From assembly GCA_018396955.1 (NCBI GenBank), contig JAGTQI010000009.1:1-33472 (forward strand): a stretch of 33,472 bases of DNA, written 5' to 3'. The stretch is from Candidatus Bathyarchaeota archaeon. GTDB lineage: Archaea; Thermoproteota; Bathyarchaeia; Bathyarchaeales; Bathycorpusculaceae. The notes beneath the pieces are model-generated. The model saw nothing but the letters and a program-made list of their open reading frames with translations. It ran no database searches and was not told where the DNA came from. Below, in pieces: positions 19,969-33,472 of this stretch (the first letter of the stretch is position 1; each line of letters opens with the position of its first letter). Made by a program: the position numbers and the translations under genes.

Positions 19969-22900
19969 CTAAGCGAAGCTTGTTAGGCTAATTTGTCTAG
20001 GCTTTTTACCATCAAATAACGAGTTAATCTCTTCCCTTACAAGCAGAATCCGTTGACTGTAGTAGCGCGGCAAATTATACTTCTTAATTATGTGTTCAGC
20101 AGCCTCAAGATACTTTTCAATGCCACCCCGATAGACTGTTAGGGTTAAATCGCCGCCGCATGTTGGACATTTACCCCGCAGTGGCAAACGCCGGAAACGC
20201 TTATTGCAAGATTTGCAGCGGAACCCTTGCATTGAAAAAGCCCGAAGGTTCCCGACAATGTCGCGGATAAAATGTTTTGTCAAGACTTTTAAGGCGACTT
20301 TTTGCGCGTCCACAGCCTCAATTTTCTCTGCAAGAGCCAACTGCCCGTTAAGCTTTTCCACCATGGCTTTAAAGCGTTTATAAGCGCTTTCCGCATTACC
20401 CATATTAATGTTTGAAGCGGGTACTGTAAAGCGGTAGCCCTCAAACTGCGCTTCTGTTTCAAGACGATATTCAATGAGATCTATTAGTGGGCTAATATGT
20501 TTAGCTTCAGCCTTTTCCAAAGTTTTCTGGTAAAACTCTAATGGGTAAGTGCCAGCCACGTCAAAGTCGTGCGCTTGCCTTTGCACCTCTTTTGGGTTGA
20601 CAACAGATATCAATAGCAAAGGAGCATCCATTATTCCGCCTATTTGCGCTGGCAAGAAAACCCTTGAAAAGTTTAGCAGTGTGTCCAGTGCAAGCATTAG
20701 TGCGTCTTCGTCACCGTCGCAATCCCTTCGCTTGGCAGAGTGCCAAATTGGATGGGCATAACAGACATTTAGACTTGTGAATCCGATGATCCGCCCAAGG
20801 ACACCAACACATGTGTGGGGAGCCAAGCCGATGACTAAATGACCAACAAGGTCTTCAACGTGTCTAACATTATAGTACGGCGGCAGTCCATAAACCTTCA
20901 CAAGAAGTTCGTCAACAAAGTTTGCCACAAGAACAAAATATTCTCCGCACTTAATCGGAATAATGACATCTTGTATTTTCAGCTCGCATAACTGCTCTGG
21001 ACTTGTTAGAGGATTGCCATAAGCATCGGTTGTGTAACCAAGCTGAACAAGCTTTTCGACGGAAACCCCAATCTCTAATGGTTTAAAATGTGTTAACGGA
21101 GCATTTGTTGCATCAAAACGTATAGTGCCGTCCTTGTAAACGGAAAGGTCGTATTTTGCTCGCAAAACACCTTTCTCCAGAATTTCTGGAGTTTTGGTTT
21201 CGTTGGTTAAGCCCTTAACACCCTTCAAAACCTTCAGTGACGACACGCCTAAATGAGTGCAAGCTTGGTCTAGCAGCTCACTGATATTGATGCTTTGCCG
21301 CTGATAGGGAACTGCAGAAACTTTACAGACCGGACATTCGCCACCCCCGTTAAGCACTTTTCCACATTTTGGGCAAACATACTCTAAAACCGTTTTAGAA
21401 CCACATGCAAGGCACTTTCTTCCAAGAGCAATTGTCCTACATAATGGACATTTGCGTTTGACAACTTCCACGTAAACATTTCCACGTTTTGCGGCCTCTA
21501 AAGCATCTCTTTGAGAACCACCAGCCAAACCCAAAGGGAACAAAACATGCACAAGAGGTTTCATCTCCCGCCTTTTAGCCTTTTCAGGGCGGCCCATTCT
21601 CGCACCAATAAAAGTTGAAGCTTTATCCTTAACAACCACGCCGCAAAGTTCCTCAAAGGTTCTGAAAACATCCGCTTGTCGAAAATCAACGTTAGATTTA
21701 CCGATGCCAAGACAGAAGGCGAAGGCACACGCGTCATCCCCTTCAACAACTATATTATCCCCAACAACTTTATGGGGTAAGCATATGGATTCTAAAGCCC
21801 TTTTAACATTCTCATCCATCTTGCCAACTATACGGCGGGTGCATCCACCATCACACTCCACACTAGCTGTAATTAGCCAGTCCCTAAGAAGCTTGAGCTC
21901 TTCAACAGAACTTAAACCTGACCAGAAGAATGTATAGGCTGGATGAAGCGGAACTCCAACATTTAATGAAAGCGCCATGGCCTCCTTGCACGTCGGCTTA
22001 TTTACAAACGGATTATCAAGAAAACGCTTAAGTCTCTCAACGGATATTCCGGCGGCAACCACAGCCCTTTCAAAATCTCCACTAAACTTCTCGACGACAA
22101 CTTTCCTTAGATCTTCAGCCCACCACTCTTCAACATATCCGGCGGGAGCAAGGGTCTTCCCTTGGTAAAGGAAATCGCCAAAACTTATGAGGATATCGCC
22201 CAGAAACAATATTCTCTCAATTCTATCTCTAACATCACTGAAATTTTCCATAGAAACACGCACAACCGACCCGTCTCTCAATTTCACTATCGGCGGTTCC
22301 AAGGTGTCAACAGGTACAGCGATTCCACCTTTCCCGGGAAGCTCAAGGCGAAGTTGAGTGCCGGCTGCGATGAAACCTTGAAGAACAAGCATAGTTGCCG
22401 GATGAACGCCCACAGCTGTTAATCCCGTGTTTCTTGCCCTCCCATAACGTAGGCGAAAACCGCCCCGCCTACCCGGAAAGGAGAATATGGGGCGTCCTGC
22501 AACAATGTCGTCCATGAAGCCAGATGCTTTCTTTTCAGACATTTCTCTAATATCCTTAAGCCAATCCCAGCCTTGAATGCCCAGCTTCTCCACAATAGCC
22601 CAAACCTTTGAAGCCCGCCCAACGATTCCATCGTTGACCACACGAAGTGCTCCTCCCCGAACCTTGTTCGTTTCAATGCGGGGCAAATTGCGGTAAGAAG
22701 AAACCTCAACAGAATTAGATTCTGTGCCAGTAACTTCTACGGGCAACCACCGTAGCGCTCTCTGTAGCTCTTCGTCTGAAACGTGATATTGGAAACGGCT
22801 TACAGTGCGCTCATAAAGTCTAACCTCCTCGATAAAGCGGGCAATTTCCTCCTCCGTGGGCTTATAACGGTCAAGGCCAAGAATTCTACGAATAAAATCA

Positions 22901-23370
22901 CCAATAACAAGTGTAAGCGCTTGGTCGGTTCCTCCGGCAGAGCGGATTGGACCAGCGAAGTAGATAGCCAAATACTTTGACCTATCATGGTTAGTTTTTA
23001 TTTTAACCTGCGCAATGCCTTGTATTGGGGCAGCAGTAACCCCTTCTGTAAGGATAGCTAAGGCTGTCCGTATTGCTTGTTCAGCGGCAGCCTCAGGCTC
23101 CAAGTGTCCAAACTTTCCGTAAACAATGTCCTCAGCAATTTTGAAGGCAAGCTCCTCCCTTGAAAGTTTTGAGCTCAACTCCCGTATTCTTTCTGCAACG
23201 CCCCTCGGACCAACAAGCCCCTCAATAAGGTCAGCCATGTCCCTTGCAATCGTGCATTCCGGCTTAAATTCGGGGTCAAAGCCTTTTTCTCGAGCTTTGG
23301 TGGCTATGCTGTATAACTGTTCGAGCTGCTTTTCTAAATTCTCAACATATTTTTCGTAGGATTTGCTCAT
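19969..23370 (-). CDS. polC: DNA polymerase D large subunit DP2
   Basis: About 1133 aa from MSKSYEKYVENLEKQ; AAEQAIRTALAILTEGVTAAPIQGIAQVKIK, GPIRSAGGTDQALTLVIGDFIR, HSAKRRDCDGDEDALMLALDTLLNFSR; Cys4 zinc modules. No intein apparent. Confidence 0.97.
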   Translation of the reverse strand: MSKSYEKYVENLEKQLEQLYSIATKAREKGFDPEFKPECTIARDMADLIEGLVGPRGVAERIRELSSKLSREELAFKIAEDIVYGKFGHLEPEAAAEQAIRTALAILTEGVTAAPIQGIAQVKIKTNHDRSKYLAIYFAGPIRSAGGTDQALTLVIGDFIRRILGLDRYKPTEEEIARFIEEVRLYERTVSRFQYHVSDEELQRALRWLPVEVTGTESNSVEVSSYRNLPRIETNKVRGGALRVVNDGIVGRASKVWAIVEKLGIQGWDWLKDIREMSEKKASGFMDDIVAGRPIFSFPGRRGGFRLRYGRARNTGLTAVGVHPATMLVLQGFIAAGTQLRLELPGKGGIAVPVDTLEPPIVKLRDGSVVRVSMENFSDVRDRIERILFLGDILISFGDFLYQGKTLAPAGYVEEWWAEDLRKVVVEKFSGDFERAVVAAGISVERLKRFLDNPFVNKPTCKEAMALSLNVGVPLHPAYTFFWSGLSSVEELKLLRDWLITASVECDGGCTRRIVGKMDENVKRALESICLPHKVVGDNIVVEGDDACAFAFCLGIGKSNVDFRQADVFRTFEELCGVVVKDKASTFIGARMGRPEKAKRREMKPLVHVLFPLGLAGGSQRDALEAAKRGNVYVEVVKRKCPLCRTIALGRKCLACGSKTVLEYVCPKCGKVLNGGGECPVCKVSAVPYQRQSINISELLDQACTHLGVSSLKVLKGVKGLTNETKTPEILEKGVLRAKYDLSVYKDGTIRFDATNAPLTHFKPLEIGVSVEKLVQLGYTTDAYGNPLTSPEQLCELKIQDVIIPIKCGEYFVLVANFVDELLVKVYGLPPYYNVRHVEDLVGHLVIGLAPHTCVGVLGRIIGFTSLNVCYAHPIWHSAKRRDCDGDEDALMLALDTLLNFSRVFLPAQIGGIMDAPLLLISVVNPKEVQRQAHDFDVAGTYPLEFYQKTLEKAEAKHISPLIDLIEYRLETEAQFEGYRFTVPASNINMGNAESAYKRFKAMVEKLNGQLALAEKIEAVDAQKVALKVLTKHFIRDIVGNLRAFSMQGFRCKSCNKRFRRLPLRGKCPTCGGDLTLTVYRGGIEKYLEAAEHIIKKYNLPRYYSQRILLVREEINSLFDGKKPRQISLTSFA

Positions 23371-23514
23371 CTGGATGCCCAATCAACCACTCGGTACTTC
23401 ATTGGTCGCAGTTGCATATTTTTGTTTTCTAACAAGTAAAAGGCAAAGCTTCCATCGTCCTAAAGCAGCAAAACTATCAAGTTTTATACAAGAAAATGCA
23501 CCCTATGAGCGGTA

Positions 23515-26338: not shown

Positions 26339-27080
26339 CGAGAATCCTTAAGCTTTTTAACAACCTTTTCTATGCGATTGAAAGCCCCCTCTGACTGTTT
26401 ATAAGCAGCGTGGGAAATTCGGGTAACCTTCACCATAAGAACCAGAAGCCGACACTGGAACCGTAGCGACACACGCTTCGTAAATTACGTCTGAAATCAC
26501 AATCAAATCACGTTCAACAGCTATTTTGGCTAAAACTTTAAGTTCATCAAAAGAAAGGACCGTCCCGGTTGGGTTGTTTGGCGAGTTAAGAAGCATCACA
26601 CGTGATTTTTCCGTGATAAGTGACGTCACGTCATCAATGAAAGGCTTAAACTCATTCCTCTCCAATATAGAAATTGTTACGGGAATTCCGCCCGCCAATC
26701 TGACACAGGGTTCATAACAAATGAAACCGTGTTAGGGATTAACACTTCATCGCCGGGGTTGACTATAGCCAACAAAGCAGGGGAAATGGCCTCCGTCCCG
26801 CCAACAGTAACCAAAACCTCAGAGTTTGGGTCATATTTAAGGCCTTCTCAGCCAAAACCTCTCGAAGCTCTGGAATACCATTAGTCTGATCATAGTGAGT
26901 TTTACCCTCTAATACTGCCTTCCAACCTCTCGCCAAAGCATGCATGGGGCGGCGTAAAACCCAGCTTCTTCCCAACACTCAAATTAATAATTCCTGGAAT
27001 TTCTCAGTCCAAAGCGAAAAATCGGCGAATCCAGAGGGCTTTATCTTTTTTAGACGCTCAGAAGCCTTAAATTGCAACAT
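26335..27080 (-). pseudogene. Class I/II PLP aminotransferase pseudogene with frameshifts and internal deletion
   Basis: Pieces in different frames: MLQFKASERLKKIKPSGFADFSLWTEKF; KTHYDQTNGIPELREVLAEKAL; GGIPVTISILERNEFKPFIDDVTSLITEKSRVMLLNSPNNPTGTVLSFDELKVLAKIAVERDLIVISDVIYEA; VATVPVSASGSYGEGY; RISHAAYKQSEGAFNRIEKVVKKLKDSR*. The PLP-Lys (SFSK) segment is absent. Confidence 0.88.
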
Positions 27081-28687: not shown

Positions 28688-29104
28688 TTAACCCTCGTTT
28701 GGTATATGGTGCTTTACTATAACTTGTGGTGAATTAGGCGCAATTCTGTACTGGAGACGATTAGATGCGCCAGCCTTTACGAGTAGTCCTTTACCAGCCA
28801 TTCTTGAGAGGTAGGTGGCCACCGTGCTTAGGCTGATGGGCTCCTTAAACTCTTGTTCGTAGGCTATTTGAACTTCCTTTGACGAGAACCAAACAAGGGG
28901 GAAGTTCTTTTGAAGAACTGCCAACAGCTTATCATATTTTGACTTCTTAACGCTAGTAATGCCAACCCCGTGATTGGCGCTTGATGTAACCCCTCCCAGT
29001 AACTCCACAAGGTCTAATAGACGCAAGGCTTTGTCTCGCGTTATTTGTCCTTCAATGGATATGCAATATTTATTGCCTTCACCATCGAACACTTCGACTC
29101 TCAT
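28688..29104 (-). CDS. Uncharacterised winged-helix-like protein
   Basis: From MRVEVFDGEGNKYCISIEGQITRDKALRLLDLVELLGG; wHTH-like FSSKEVQIAYEQEFKEPISLSTVATYLSRMAGKGLLVKAGASNRLQYRI. Confidence 0.62.
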   Translation of the reverse strand: MRVEVFDGEGNKYCISIEGQITRDKALRLLDLVELLGGVTSSANHGVGITSVKKSKYDKLLAVLQKNFPLVWFSSKEVQIAYEQEFKEPISLSTVATYLSRMAGKGLLVKAGASNRLQYRIAPNSPQVIVKHHIPNEG

Positions 29105-29318
29105 CTTTCTCGCTGGCACTGCCGTCGGACACCCGCAAATTCTCTTCACAGATTTGCACTTCACAAGATATAGCTATTGCGGTGAAGTCAAGGATATTCA
29201 AAAAGCCAATTTTAAACCGGAAATGACGTAAAGCGCTTTATTTCCAAAGATTTTGGATAACAAAGTTTACAGACAATTTCCTTATGTAAAACAAAAGAGT
29301 CGGCAAATTGCGCTGGCG

Positions 29319-29342
29319 TTTTCCAGTAGAAACTATGGGGTG
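29319..29342 (+). promoter_or_regulatory. ORB1: origin recognition box-like element
   Basis: ttttccagtagaaactatggggtg matches the archaeal ORB layout TTCCAgTgGAAAC...GGGGT. Confidence 0.78.
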
Positions 29343-29536
29343 CCTTTTCCAAAAAGAAGAGACACAGAAATAGCAATACGGTGAGAATTAAGGGAATAAA
29401 AACACCAAAAATAAGTAAATTCACAAGTTTTTCACAAGGTGTGAAAAGAATATGGTTTCGTTACGCCTTAGTATGACGAATGTGTTCAGCTGTTGTAAGT
29501 TTCTTGGCTTTAAGTATATGTGAGATATTAGGGGTG

Positions 29537-29562
29537 CTACCCCGCTGTTTCCATTGGAAAGG
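29537..29562 (-). promoter_or_regulatory. ORB2: origin recognition box-like element, inverted
   Basis: Reverse complement cctttccaatggaaacagcggggtag aligns with ORB1 and ORB3 without gaps. Confidence 0.8.
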
Positions 29563-29721
29563 ATGTTTGCGCTAAAACTTCTTCGTTACTACAGATCAAG
29601 GTGAAACATTTTTAGTTTAGGTATAAAAACTTCTACGAGAACTTTTTTTATTTGTAAAGATCTCTAACCGTTCAGAGTATTTTTCCTTTTCCAGGAAACA
29701 GAAATTTTAAAAACTTAAGAG

Positions 29722-29745
29722 TATTCCAGTTGAAATGATGGGGTG
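29722..29745 (+). promoter_or_regulatory. ORB3: origin recognition box-like element
   Basis: tattccagttgaaatgatggggtg; same length and spacing as ORB1. Confidence 0.78.
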
Positions 29746-29894
29746 TCTCCTTTTTCTAATAACAGAACATCTACCACTTTTAGGATTTTACTGCTGCTTG
29801 TTCACTTTTCTGTATGAGATGCCTTATCTTTAAACTCTTCAAAAATGAGGCGAACACACTTTGCATAAAGTTTCATTTAGGAGAAAGGAGTCTA

Positions 29895-31145
29895 ATGAAG
29901 GATACAAGTATACTTGATGAGGTGTTTGAAAGATTCTGCAATACGGTGGGCGTGTTTAAGGACAGGGAGGTTCTCCGGCACGACTATTTACCAGAGAAGC
30001 TTCCCCATCGTGAAGAACAGATTCGACGCCTTGGAGAGGTTATTGCACCAGTTTTGAAGGGCGCACGATGTTCCAACATTTTTGTTTACGGGAAAACGGG
30101 CACCGGTAAAACTGCTGTGACTAAATATGTCTTGAACCACTTGGAAGTTAAGGCTAAGGAAATCGGTGCACCTGTAAGTTTTTGTTATGTAAATTGTCGC
30201 TTGGCTGGAACCGAGTATAGGGTTCTTGCGAGTTTATGCCAGAGTATTAACCTCGTAGTTCCGTTCACTGGGCTTTCTCTTGGCGAGGTTTTTGACCGGT
30301 TTAAGCAAGGCTTGGATACTGCTAAGAGGATACTGATTGTCGCCCTTGATGAGGTGGACGCCATAGTAAAGGCGCGAAGCGACATTCTCCTATACGAACT
30401 CACAAGAATCAACGAAATATTAACACGCAGTAAAGCCTCCGTAATAGGCATTTCCAATGACTTACGCCTAAAAGAGTTCCTAGACCCTCGGGTTCTAAGC
30501 TCCCTGAGCGAAGAGGAAATAGTCTTTAGGCCCTATAATGCAGCTGAACTAAGGAACATTTTGGCCGAGCGGGCGCAAATGGCTTTCCGCGATGGGGCCC
30601 TTACCGAGGGAGCTCTAAGCCTTTGCGCGGCTTTGGCGGCTGCCGAGCACGGTGATGCTCGGAGAGCCTTGGATCTGCTAAGAGTTGCTGGCGAAGTTGC
30701 AGAACGTAAAGGAGAAAGCACTGTTACTGAGGAGCATGTCCGCGAGGCTGAGAGGCTTATAGAGCATAATAGAGTTGTTGATGCTTTGGCAAATTTGACC
30801 TTACACTCTAAACTTGTGATGCTGAGCGTTTATCATCTTGTTAGGGCGAACGGTTACCGTGCGGTTACGGGCGAAATTTATGAGGTGTATAATGAGCTTT
30901 GCAGCGAATTGGCTGTAACGCCTTTAACTCAGAGGCGTGTTAGCACCTTGGTTAACGAGCTTGATGCTTTGGGTCTGCTAAACGCGCAAGTTGTGAGCAT
31001 GGGACGTTATGGACGGACGAAAAAGATCCGCATGGAGGTGACACGCACCCTTATTAAAGAAGCCTTCTCTAATGACAGTAGGCTTGGACGCTTGATTGAT
31101 TATGAGCCCAAAAGTCTTTCAAAAGATGCGGGTAGTAGGAATTGA
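29895..31145 (+). CDS. cdc6: Orc1/Cdc6 replication initiator (AAA+ ATPase)
   Basis: Walker A YGKTGTGKTAVTKYVL, Walker B LIVALDEVDAIV, sensor GISNDLRLKEFLDPRVLSSL, C-terminal winged helix. Likely ATG at 29895 after gagaaaggag RBS. Confidence 0.96.
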   Translation: MKDTSILDEVFERFCNTVGVFKDREVLRHDYLPEKLPHREEQIRRLGEVIAPVLKGARCSNIFVYGKTGTGKTAVTKYVLNHLEVKAKEIGAPVSFCYVNCRLAGTEYRVLASLCQSINLVVPFTGLSLGEVFDRFKQGLDTAKRILIVALDEVDAIVKARSDILLYELTRINEILTRSKASVIGISNDLRLKEFLDPRVLSSLSEEEIVFRPYNAAELRNILAERAQMAFRDGALTEGALSLCAALAAAEHGDARRALDLLRVAGEVAERKGESTVTEEHVREAERLIEHNRVVDALANLTLHSKLVMLSVYHLVRANGYRAVTGEIYEVYNELCSELAVTPLTQRRVSTLVNELDALGLLNAQVVSMGRYGRTKKIRMEVTRTLIKEAFSNDSRLGRLIDYEPKSLSKDAGSRN

Positions 31146-31659
31146 AGATGGAAGTTTTGTAAAGGGTGTTGATGAAAAGGCTCTTTTGGCCGCTGTCCTT
31201 TTCAAGGGGTTAAAGATTGAGGATGTGACTTTCAAATGGATAACTGTTGATGGCTTTGATGCAACGGAAAAGGCTGCAGAAATCCTAAAACAGTGGGATT
31301 TTCAAGCGGTCATGCTTGCTGGAGTGTCCTTTGCCGGCTTTAACGTTATAGACCCTTTAGCTCTTTCTGACATGTTTCAAAAACCCATAGTTGTTGTGGC
31401 AAGAACAAAGCCTGATAATCGGGCGGTTAAAAGTGCACTTATACGACACTTCAAGGATTGGGCACGACGCTGGGAGGTTTTTGCAAAATTAGGGCCAATC
31501 TATGAGGTGAAGGTGTTGGAAGGTGAGGCCCCATTATATTTTGAAGTTGTTGGGGCAAAGATGGAGTGGGCCAGCCAGCTTATAACAAGTTTTGTTGCCT
31601 GTGGCAGAATACCGGAACCCCTCCGTGTCGCTAGACTAATCGCACGCGGCCTATCTTAA
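31102..31659 (+). CDS. DUF99 family protein
   Basis: MSPKVFQKMRVVGIEDGSFVKG...AVMLAGVSFAGFNVIDPLALSDMFQKPIVVVARTKPDN; overlaps the cdc6 3' end by 44 nt. Confidence 0.9.
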   Translation: MSPKVFQKMRVVGIEDGSFVKGVDEKALLAAVLFKGLKIEDVTFKWITVDGFDATEKAAEILKQWDFQAVMLAGVSFAGFNVIDPLALSDMFQKPIVVVARTKPDNRAVKSALIRHFKDWARRWEVFAKLGPIYEVKVLEGEAPLYFEVVGAKMEWASQLITSFVACGRIPEPLRVARLIARGLS

Positions 31660-33239
31660 GTAAACGGGATGACTTTAACATCTAATGTTTGGAGATTCAC
31701 CACCGGTACCAGACCGGGCATTGGGATGAACCCTTGCCTTTTCATGTACTCAGTCTGCTCCTGCCAGCACCCAGAGTTAACAACGGTGACTCCCCTGTAA
31801 TTTGTATATCCGGCTGTGTGGGTGTGCCCGGCGTGGAAAATGTCGGGCACGCGATCTATGACGAGGTAGTCTTTGCTCTCTGGCGCCAACGGTGTTTTTC
31901 CTCCATAAACTGGTGCTAAGTGGCGGCACTGCAAAAGTAGGGTCATGGCTTTTTCTGGCTGGGTGTAATTTATTCCAGGAACTGTTGAGATTATGTCGTC
32001 TAGGCTTCGGCCATGGTACATGAGAGCTTCAACGTTGTGGAGACTGAGAAGACAGGGATTTCCAAAAGAGTGGATGTTGCTTGCGTCGTGAAGGTTCTCC
32101 AGAAAGGCACCGGATATTGGCGGTTGGGGTAAAGCCTTTCTTGGGGCATCATGGTTTCCCGGAATGATTACCACTTCAATGTAGTCTGGGATTTGCTTGA
32201 TGAGATTTGAGGCTAATCTATATTGCCCATAAATATCCCTTATTGCAAGTTCCTTAACTTGATTTGGGTAGACGCCTATTCCGTCAACGATGTCGCCGGC
32301 TATCAAAACATATTTTACATGGCTAGCTATCTCTCGCATTTGCCCATTTCCATATTCGCCCTTTAACCACAAAACAAACCTGTTAAAAAGATGTTCTTGG
32401 AATTTTACACTCCCCACATGCAAGTCTGAAGTGAGCACGGCGTAAACAGGAACCGGAGCCTTGTTCGGATTTTTAGGGGCGATGTCTGGGAGGATAATGT
32501 CTTCAGCTATCAACAAGTTTCCCCGAGTTTTAGTCACGCTCACACAAATAACCTGGTCCAACAAGAGGGTTCTTGCTTTGGTCAAGAGGTCGGAGGGCGC
32601 ATTTTGCGGCACCAAAACAGTGGCGCTTGCACTGAAATCTTCTAACGTTAAGAGAATTTTTTGCTTTGCCTCTTTCTTCTCTGTTATCATGCCGATTATT
32701 TTGAGTTTTGTGTTGGGCGGAGCCCTTACCACATCAGCAATTGGAGTCGCTCCTCTTGCATCCATTCTTTGCCTCAGCAGTTTTTCGAGGCGTTCAAACC
32801 TATCCCTGAAGTATTTAAGGTAATCTTCCAATGTTCCGCTTGAGCTTAGTTTACTGCCAGCATCCTCAATGATCTTAATTTCGGCTTCCACTTCTCTGGC
32901 GTATGGGCGGAAAAGCTTTTTCCCCTCAAGGATTAATTGAGGCTGTATAAGCGATCCTCGAAGAATTGTTTGTGGGGATACCTCTTCATTTATCTGCGGT
33001 GCTAAAGTTGAGCTTTCAATTCTTTCGGGCTTTTTTACAATCTCTTCTAAAAGACTTCTTTCAATGAAAAGCGGCTTATCCTTTAATGTTTTTATTTTGG
33101 CTAAAGCTTTACTTATAATATCAACAGGGTCTTCGGTTGAGGATGCCTTGTTTAAGAATTCGAAGGCATCTTTGTTAAGCTGGTATCCTGCTGCTACAGT
33201 AAGCTCGACAGCCTTTTGAAGCTTCTCGAAAAAACTCAT
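31656..33239 (-). CDS. polB: DNA polymerase D small subunit DP1
   Basis: AVLTSDLHVGSVKFQEHLFNRFVLWLKGEYGN, IAGDIVDGIGVYPNQ, IPGNHDAPRKALPQPPIS, HAGHTHTAGYTNYRGVTVVNSGCWQEQTEYMKRQG. ATG 33237-33239 overlaps the upstream stop (ATGA). Confidence 0.96.
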   Translation of the reverse strand: MSFFEKLQKAVELTVAAGYQLNKDAFEFLNKASSTEDPVDIISKALAKIKTLKDKPLFIERSLLEEIVKKPERIESSTLAPQINEEVSPQTILRGSLIQPQLILEGKKLFRPYAREVEAEIKIIEDAGSKLSSSGTLEDYLKYFRDRFERLEKLLRQRMDARGATPIADVVRAPPNTKLKIIGMITEKKEAKQKILLTLEDFSASATVLVPQNAPSDLLTKARTLLLDQVICVSVTKTRGNLLIAEDIILPDIAPKNPNKAPVPVYAVLTSDLHVGSVKFQEHLFNRFVLWLKGEYGNGQMREIASHVKYVLIAGDIVDGIGVYPNQVKELAIRDIYGQYRLASNLIKQIPDYIEVVIIPGNHDAPRKALPQPPISGAFLENLHDASNIHSFGNPCLLSLHNVEALMYHGRSLDDIISTVPGINYTQPEKAMTLLLQCRHLAPVYGGKTPLAPESKDYLVIDRVPDIFHAGHTHTAGYTNYRGVTVVNSGCWQEQTEYMKRQGFIPMPGLVPVVNLQTLDVKVIPFT

Positions 33240-33472
33240 AACCTTACCTCTCTCCAATCCCACTTTATTGGGACTACAATGTAGCCTTCCTCGAAATCAC
33301 CCAAAATTTCTGTTAAACCTTCCATGTAAAAATAACCAGTCAACGCCGCTGTGACAGCGTCTATCTCATGCGGCGTCAATGCACGCTGACTTAGGGACCC
33401 GGCTAGTCCGATGCTTTTTAGAATGTTTTGAATTGTTTTCCAGTCTCTTGTTGGCATGCCTAAAGCCTTTCT
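33236..33472 (-). CDS. DUF429-like predicted nuclease, C-terminal part only (runs off window)
   Basis: RKALGMPTRDWKTIQNILKSIGLAG...LTPHEIDAVTAALTGYFYMEGLTEILGDFEEGYIVVP; no start in window. Confidence 0.6.
   Translation of the reverse strand, partial: RKALGMPTRDWKTIQNILKSIGLAGSLSQRALTPHEIDAVTAALTGYFYMEGLTEILGDFEEGYIVVPIKWDWREVRL

Follow-up and report, generated by a model that had tools for sequence, protein, structure and literature searches.

A probable oriC1-type replication origin upstream of orc1/cdc6 in Bathyarchaeia, with a candidate winged-helix accessory module

How archaeal origins are recognised is known from a few cultivated lineages, in which Orc1 is the established initiator. 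The oriC1 of Sulfolobus and Saccharolobus carries three ORBs and adjoins the Orc1-1 gene (PMC12141716, PMC4010727); ORB2 and ORB3 flank its A/T-rich DUE in inverted orientation, and the origin requires both of them (PMC12141716). Within that DUE lies an accessory motif, ucm, which is bound by UBP, a 111-aa protein that is described as contacting DNA through beta-hairpins. Ori1 of Aeropyrum pernix bears four ORBs, whose pairs surround a melting region rich in A/T (PMC8287685). Accessory components of other kinds are found at Haloarcula hispanica oriC1, where G-rich, inverted repeats lying directly inside each ORB modulate origin activity, and at Sulfolobus oriC3, beside which a small, Cdt1-related winged-helix protein, WhiP, is encoded that takes the place of Orc1 (PMC4010727). 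In the ammonia oxidizer Nitrosopumilus maritimus, one origin has been mapped in vivo (Pelve 2013, as cited in PMC4010727 and PMC5333045).

The window analysed here is a stretch of 33,472 nucleotides from a Candidatus Bathyarchaeota archaeon (assembly GCA_018396955.1, contig JAGTQI010000009.1), and its orc1 locus is very probably the main chromosomal replication start site of this Bathyarchaeia lineage. The locus resembles the Sulfolobus and Saccharolobus oriC1 in its three ORBs, in the inversion of ORB2 and ORB3 around an A/T-rich region and in the adjoining Orc1-1 gene, and it resembles Aeropyrum Ori1 in its ORB pair around such a region and in a homologous ORC1 (2v1u). Unlike Sulfolobus oriC1, it carries an extra array of TTCACA boxes around ORB1 and a divergent winged-helix (wHTH) gene; Ori1 differs from it in its four ORBs and in that no accessory box array has been described there. 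Like WhiP, the product of the divergent gene is a small winged-helix protein encoded next to an origin, but it accompanies an Orc1/ORB origin, and the accessory repeats near the ORBs recall those of Haloarcula, but form an array of A/T-rich hexamers with a linked protein gene. Within a major class that is uncultivated, an origin can thus be placed on good evidence, and class-wide comparison exposes a conserved second module that is invisible to single-genome origin finders.

ORB elements and the adjoining initiator gene

The window's genome is a 1.37-Mb assembly in 83 contigs, 91% complete. The features of the core locus and its replication-related neighbours are the following:

29321-29341, plus strand: ORB1, TTCCAGTAGAAACTATGGGGT
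29539-29559, minus strand: ORB2, TTCCAATGGAAACAGCGGGGT
29560-29723, no strand: candidate duplex unwinding element, A/T-rich, between the inverted ORB2 and ORB3
29724-29744, plus strand: ORB3, TTCCAGTTGAAATGATGGGGT
29895-31145, plus strand: orc1/cdc6, an Orc1-1 type initiator of 416 aa (NF001625, 503 bits with a cut-off of 501; TIGR02928, 433 bits; Cdc6_C and Cdc6_lid)
31096-31659, plus strand: endonuclease dU (Endo_dU; PF01949, 169 bits), origin-proximal neighbour
31656-33263, minus strand: PolD small subunit DP1 (NF003118, 492 bits), origin-proximal neighbour
19969-23382, minus strand: PolD large subunit DP2 (NF003103, 1441 bits), in the same replication island

The three ORBs align without gaps and match the shared core, TTCCANTNGAAANNNNGGGGT, exactly, each with the TTCCANTNGAAA dyad followed by a G-string. 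ORB2 and ORB3 point their G-strings away from each other, and A+T makes up 70% of the 164 bp that separate them. In the whole 1.37-Mb assembly there is no fourth match with fewer than 2 mismatches, and two others have exactly 2. An earlier note on this DNA had described three gapless ORB elements upstream of an orc1/cdc6 gene, the second and third inverted with outward G-strings; all of this was borne out, and its ORB coordinates are right to within 1 base (ORB2, taken as 24 nt, spans 29538-29561). Its left limit of the feature has to be moved, as the feature reaches about 29145, and the unwinding stretch that it proposed is indeed A/T-rich, although only moderately so. Even so, the weakest-pairing 50-bp stretch falls between ORB2 and ORB3 in 16 of 23 genomes, the window's included, and this interval averages 74% A+T in relatives, against 68% between ORB1 and ORB2.

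The orc1/cdc6 gene starts at an ATG (29895) preceded by GGAGAAAGGAG. The solved structures nearest to its product are Cdc6-1 of S. solfataricus (2qby_A, the best PDB match, 388 bits) and ORC1 of A. pernix (2v1u_A), and its named relatives all belong to Bathyarchaeota. Around the gene lies a replication island that comprises endonuclease dU and DP1, with DP2 some 7-10 kb off; in Euryarchaeota, too, orc1/cdc6 and DP1 are known to be linked (PMC2643942). Elsewhere in the window, a 99-aa ORF on the minus strand (26399-26698) matches a class I/II aminotransferase only over its middle part (about residues 111-194 of 361) and looks like a gene fragment or a frameshifted gene.

The arrangement is conserved well beyond this genome. 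The order plus/minus/plus of the three ORBs is kept upstream of orc1 in the relatives with enough upstream sequence, and recurs in other Thermoproteota families. In most relatives the distance from ORB3 to the downstream orc1 is about 140-215 bp, the order of the triplet and the ORB2-ORB3 spacing being fixed at 140-425 bp upstream, and ORB1 is conserved at about -500 to -700. The inverted pair around its A/T-rich element is held at 187 ± 10 bp (23 genomes), with 237 ± 36 bp between ORB1 and ORB2. A relaxed pattern for relatives, YTCCANNNGAARNNNNGGGGT, with its reversal as control, matched exactly 47 times in 24 Bathyarchaeia genomes, 46 times beside orc1 and once at a contig end, against 2 matches of the control; across the class, 153 of 189 genomes have a match, against 8 control matches. 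A random scatter of ORB matches over the genome, which the earlier note had named as an outcome that would speak against an origin, was not seen, the ORBs being almost confined to the orc1 locus in every genome. At several loci (L011; L013; L029 in G003; L026 in G008; L037 in G013; L024 in G016), a fourth, weak ORB-like element with 2-3 mismatches was seen about 55 bp upstream of orc1, close to the orc1 promoter, where it possibly serves orc1 autoregulation.

Two further Cdc6 paralogues are encoded in the window's genome (G000:C13:3917-5020 and G000:C29:2836-3648; loci L126 and L144). A second ORB origin at such paralogues was considered and rejected, as no ORB within 3 mismatches was found in 20 upstream regions; since the genome has these two additional genes, further origins of other types are possible. 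The upstream regions of the first paralogue share 8-mers across relatives (such as GCTTGAAA and AACGTTTC), perhaps the putative sites of another initiator. In several Bathyarchaeia genomes (families f21, f22 and f23, and G026), mostly >90% complete, Orc1-1 orthologues are missing at E<=1e-60 and ORBs are few or absent, which suggests another initiation system or gene loss.

Strand asymmetry at the orc1 locus of relatives

Because the genome that holds the window is broken into too many pieces (83 contigs), skew was examined in relatives, in 20-kb stretches and at fourfold sites, with T-A skew corrected for gene strand. The earlier note had looked to an inflection of GC skew for confirmation. 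GC skew gave no significant two-arm signal in the window or in the sampled Bathyarchaeia genomes, so that the support from skew rests on T-A, the second measure tried, whose sign was taken from genome G273; with this measure the expected switch of strand asymmetry was found. In G030, a complete genome in one 2.15-Mb contig, the T-A step at orc1 amounts to 0.188 (p=0.0005), the best T-A boundary on a 45-kb grid lies 6 kb from orc1, and the sign changes between -33 kb and 0. The switch at orc1 is weak in G008 (p=0.021, best position 21 kb away) and in the partial contig of G002 (p=0.05, best position 100 kb away). At the homologous locus of G273, a genome with AmoA present elsewhere in its family, T-A skew switches again (p=0.0005), and a GC boundary is found there too. 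The switch has the same sign in all four genomes, and in G030, G008 and G273 no site is clearly better. A switch of replication-strand asymmetry is thus found in relatives, within Bathyarchaeia by T-A skew only.

Nitrosopumilus maritimus offers a comparison with a mapped origin. G273 has a homologous locus with wHTH gene, ORBs, boxes and orc1, and from its skew this locus is inferred to be the mapped N. maritimus origin peak; unlike in the window, the boxes of G273 are mostly TTAACA and its ORBs are CTGGAGTGGAAATAAAGGGG. As a separate observation, the strand asymmetry in G030, G008 and G273 is carried by T over A, without a common GC skew, and therefore finders based on GC skew would miss Bathyarchaeia origins.

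The TTCACA array and the divergent winged-helix gene

The earlier note's picture of ORBs and orc1 holds, but it is incomplete, having overlooked an array of boxes and the winged-helix gene linked to it, whose features are:

28688-29119, minus strand: divergent wHTH gene, 143 aa, candidate accessory origin-binding protein, start GTG 29119 (MPARKMRVEVFDGEGNKY...)
29145-29186, no strand: box cluster over the wHTH promoter, with TTCACA at 29145-29150 and 29160-29165, a TATA-like ATATAGC at 29168-29174 and an inverted GGTGAA at 29181-29186
29257-29271, plus strand: degenerate box pair, ATAACA/TTTACA here and TTCACA-N3-TTCACA in relatives, at -63 and -54 from ORB1
29348-29353, plus strand: degenerate box, TTCCAA here and TTCACA in 17 of 24 relatives, at +27 from ORB1
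29420-29445, no strand: box cluster TTCACA-N5-TTCACA-N3-TGTGAA, with boxes at 29420, 29431 and, inverted, 29440, at +99, +110 and +119 from ORB1

The clear boxes of the window are those at 29145, 29160, 29420 and 29431 and the inverted one at 29440. Across relatives, TTCACA recurs at about -176, -161, -63, -54, +27, +100 and +111 from ORB1, and its inverted form, TGTGAA, near +120; the first two of these positions belong to the promoter cluster, a conserved block in the alignment of 24 genomes. Between -200 and +140 around ORB1, these genomes hold 132 boxes, as against 4.4 in shuffles (maximum 11), and one offset is common to 20 of the 24 within 1 bp, a figure that does not exceed 3 in shuffles. 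The sequence between the boxes is far from uniform: spacer identity of the window's genome is about 23-50% with G018 or more distant genomes, and 30-68% with G002 and G008. Nearly all boxes (128 of 131) lie upstream of ORB2 and a single one between ORB2 and ORB3, and because of this and of the fixed offsets, ORB1 and the boxes are taken as one rigid unit and ORB2, the unwinding element and ORB3 as another. This placement, together with a linked protein modelled as wHTH, also sets the array apart from an accessory system of the Sulfolobus ucm-UBP type, which was rejected. Single TTCACA pairs elsewhere in the genomes are near chance (70 over 12 genomes, compared with 34 for the reversed control), and a regulon of box pairs was likewise discarded: only at the origin were pairs seen to recur at a homologous site from one genome to the next.

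The start of the wHTH gene was placed at the GTG at 29119 because MPARKM is conserved, the automatic ORF start at 29164 being too long. An AlphaFold2 model of the protein (9-sequence alignment, pLDDT 72) comprises a beta-hairpin and a helix, joined by a disordered linker to a wHTH domain. No model of Pfam or NCBIfam exceeded its cut-off (best in Pfam, Penicillinase_R, 17.7 bits), a PDB profile search reached E 0.067, and Foldseek placed the C-terminal domain weakly near repressors of the Fur/BlaI/RosR type (best E 4.6e-3). Membership of a known family was thus rejected, Pfam, PDB and Foldseek giving generic wHTH only; no Cdt1-type match was obtained in Pfam or PDB (generic wHTH folds, E>1e-3). 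Of 299 Thermoproteota genomes sampled, 190 have an orthologue, and the gene is single-copy and linked to the origin across much of this phylum. It stands head-to-head with orc1 at all 24 Bathyarchaeia loci with enough upstream sequence, as well as in 28 of 28 genomes of family f25 (AmoA-positive where tested), 3 of 3 of f29 and 2 of 2 of f45; in f52 the two genes lie within 3 kb of each other in three genomes, and linkage is looser in f30 (10 of 16 at 6-40 kb). Open-access papers yielded no report on a Bathyarchaeia origin or on a wHTH gene divergent from orc1, and because most subscription papers were outside the scope of the search, the novelty of the wHTH-box module is provisional.

Proposed mechanism and alternative readings

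Since the ORBs are unique, the triplet is kept and T-A skew switches at the locus, a working oriC1-type origin is very probable, and the functional oriC that the earlier note had proposed is accordingly supported, by ORBs confined to the locus and by the T-A switch in relatives. That the orc1 locus is a replication origin can be held with high confidence, and it is likely that the origin is an Orc1-dependent, bipartite one of the oriC1 type, with a core of ORB2, A/T-rich stretch and ORB3 and a module of ORB1 and boxes served by the wHTH product. At the core, by homology with oriC1 of Sulfolobus and Aeropyrum, Orc1-1 monomers would bind the inverted ORB2 and ORB3 with the polarity expected of Orc1 on ORBs, and the A/T-rich stretch between them would melt and be loaded with MCM. 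In the second module, ORB1 would sit within the rigid TTCACA array, which runs into the promoter of the divergent gene; the wHTH product may bind the boxes, form a phased complex with Orc1 on ORB1 and modulate initiation, whether by activating or by restraining it. It probably also represses its own gene, since the boxes straddle its TATA element. This accessory module is the new part of the reading and, resting on sequence comparison, is put forward as reasonably probable. On balance, the same comparison favours a wHTH origin protein, so far undescribed, that has TT(C/A)ACA boxes in phase with ORB1 as its binding sites in Bathyarchaeia, ammonia-oxidizing Nitrososphaeria and several other Thermoproteota. 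If so, origin recognition in these lineages would need two sequence-specific proteins and not Orc1 alone, the wHTH-box module would predate their split, and a wHTH origin factor would bear on the control of firing in single-origin archaea.

Evidence on what binds the boxes comes from genomes in which the wHTH gene has moved or is missing. In five genomes where it lies away from orc1 (G213, G280, G335, G206 and G399), the boxes stay with the ORB triplet upstream of orc1, with 5-12 TT[CA]ACA boxes in 700-800 bp there (null 0.8-1.9) and 0-3 at the wHTH gene. This argues against the view that the locus is a working Orc1 origin whose boxes are the mere operator of an autoregulated wHTH transcription factor without a role in replication, as does the reach of the boxes, at unvarying offsets, to +119 past ORB1, some 300 bp from where the wHTH gene starts; the straddled TATA-like element and the weak Foldseek resemblance to repressors speak for this view, which is nevertheless unlikely. 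Among genomes with Orc1-1 and without the wHTH gene (G166, G208, G215, G201 and G193), 0-1 boxes were counted, and G215 and G166 keep their ORBs; this set represents five families, one with only 288 bp of upstream sequence and another G+C-rich, and G201 and G208 give little power. Most wHTH-negative genomes also have no Orc1-1 orthologue. Boxes are found in 13 of 13 wHTH-positive and 0 of 5 negative families, a split expected by chance about once in 8,600, the families not being fully independent, and the wHTH-bearing genomes tested have boxes at the orc1 origin even when the gene is distant, except for orc1 of G195 (f26). Most simply, the boxes would be bound in trans by the wHTH protein. Another origin or chromatin protein (UBP-like, histone-like or a second Cdc6) might occupy them instead, the wHTH gene being merely a neighbour: linkage by itself is no proof of binding, and in S. 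islandicus the nucleoid protein UBP, encoded by an unlinked gene, binds an essential origin motif (PMC12141716). Such a binder is possible but rather doubtful, as the boxes track the presence of the wHTH gene even when it is unlinked, and do so within family f17 too, where G165 has both and G166 neither; moreover, no box excess was found upstream of the second Cdc6 (0.45, null 0.94).

Doubt may also be directed at the origin itself. The ORBs could serve autoregulation of orc1 or other regulation at an inactive or dormant locus, with replication starting elsewhere, and precedents are at hand in non-initiator Orc1 paralogues that act as regulators in archaea (PMC9738581) and in the dormant ORB origins of haloarchaea (PMC4595724), to which the two other Cdc6-like genes of this genome may be added. 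The T-A switch of like sign in four genomes, with no clearly better site in three of them, the lack of ORBs upstream of the Cdc6 paralogues, and the fixed triplet order and ORB2-ORB3 spacing upstream of orc1, as in known oriC1, make this very unlikely. Hardly credible is a structured RNA gene in place of a protein-binding array, even though fixed spacing and the complementarity of TTCACA and TGTGAA could give hairpins: there is no Rfam match, RNAalifold predicts 9 pairs, none of them changed on both sides, at -1.5 kcal/mol over 316 columns, and direct boxes outnumber inverted ones.

An Orc1 origin with a wHTH-box module remains the preferred reading, and family f10 and the f26 genome G195 depart from its usual layout. 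In family f10 (L158-L165; G031, G037, G038, G040, G041 and G042), one ORB with boxes lies beside the wHTH gene and orc1 is some 4-5 kb away, keeping in several genomes an ORB or ORB pair of its own, so that the origin looks split between the two genes; G042 has a further ORB pair on another contig. In G195 (L193 and L203), ORBs and boxes are both absent upstream of the orc1 orthologue, and a different contig carries the wHTH gene with an ORB-like element close by; in this genome the origin apparently remained with the wHTH gene.
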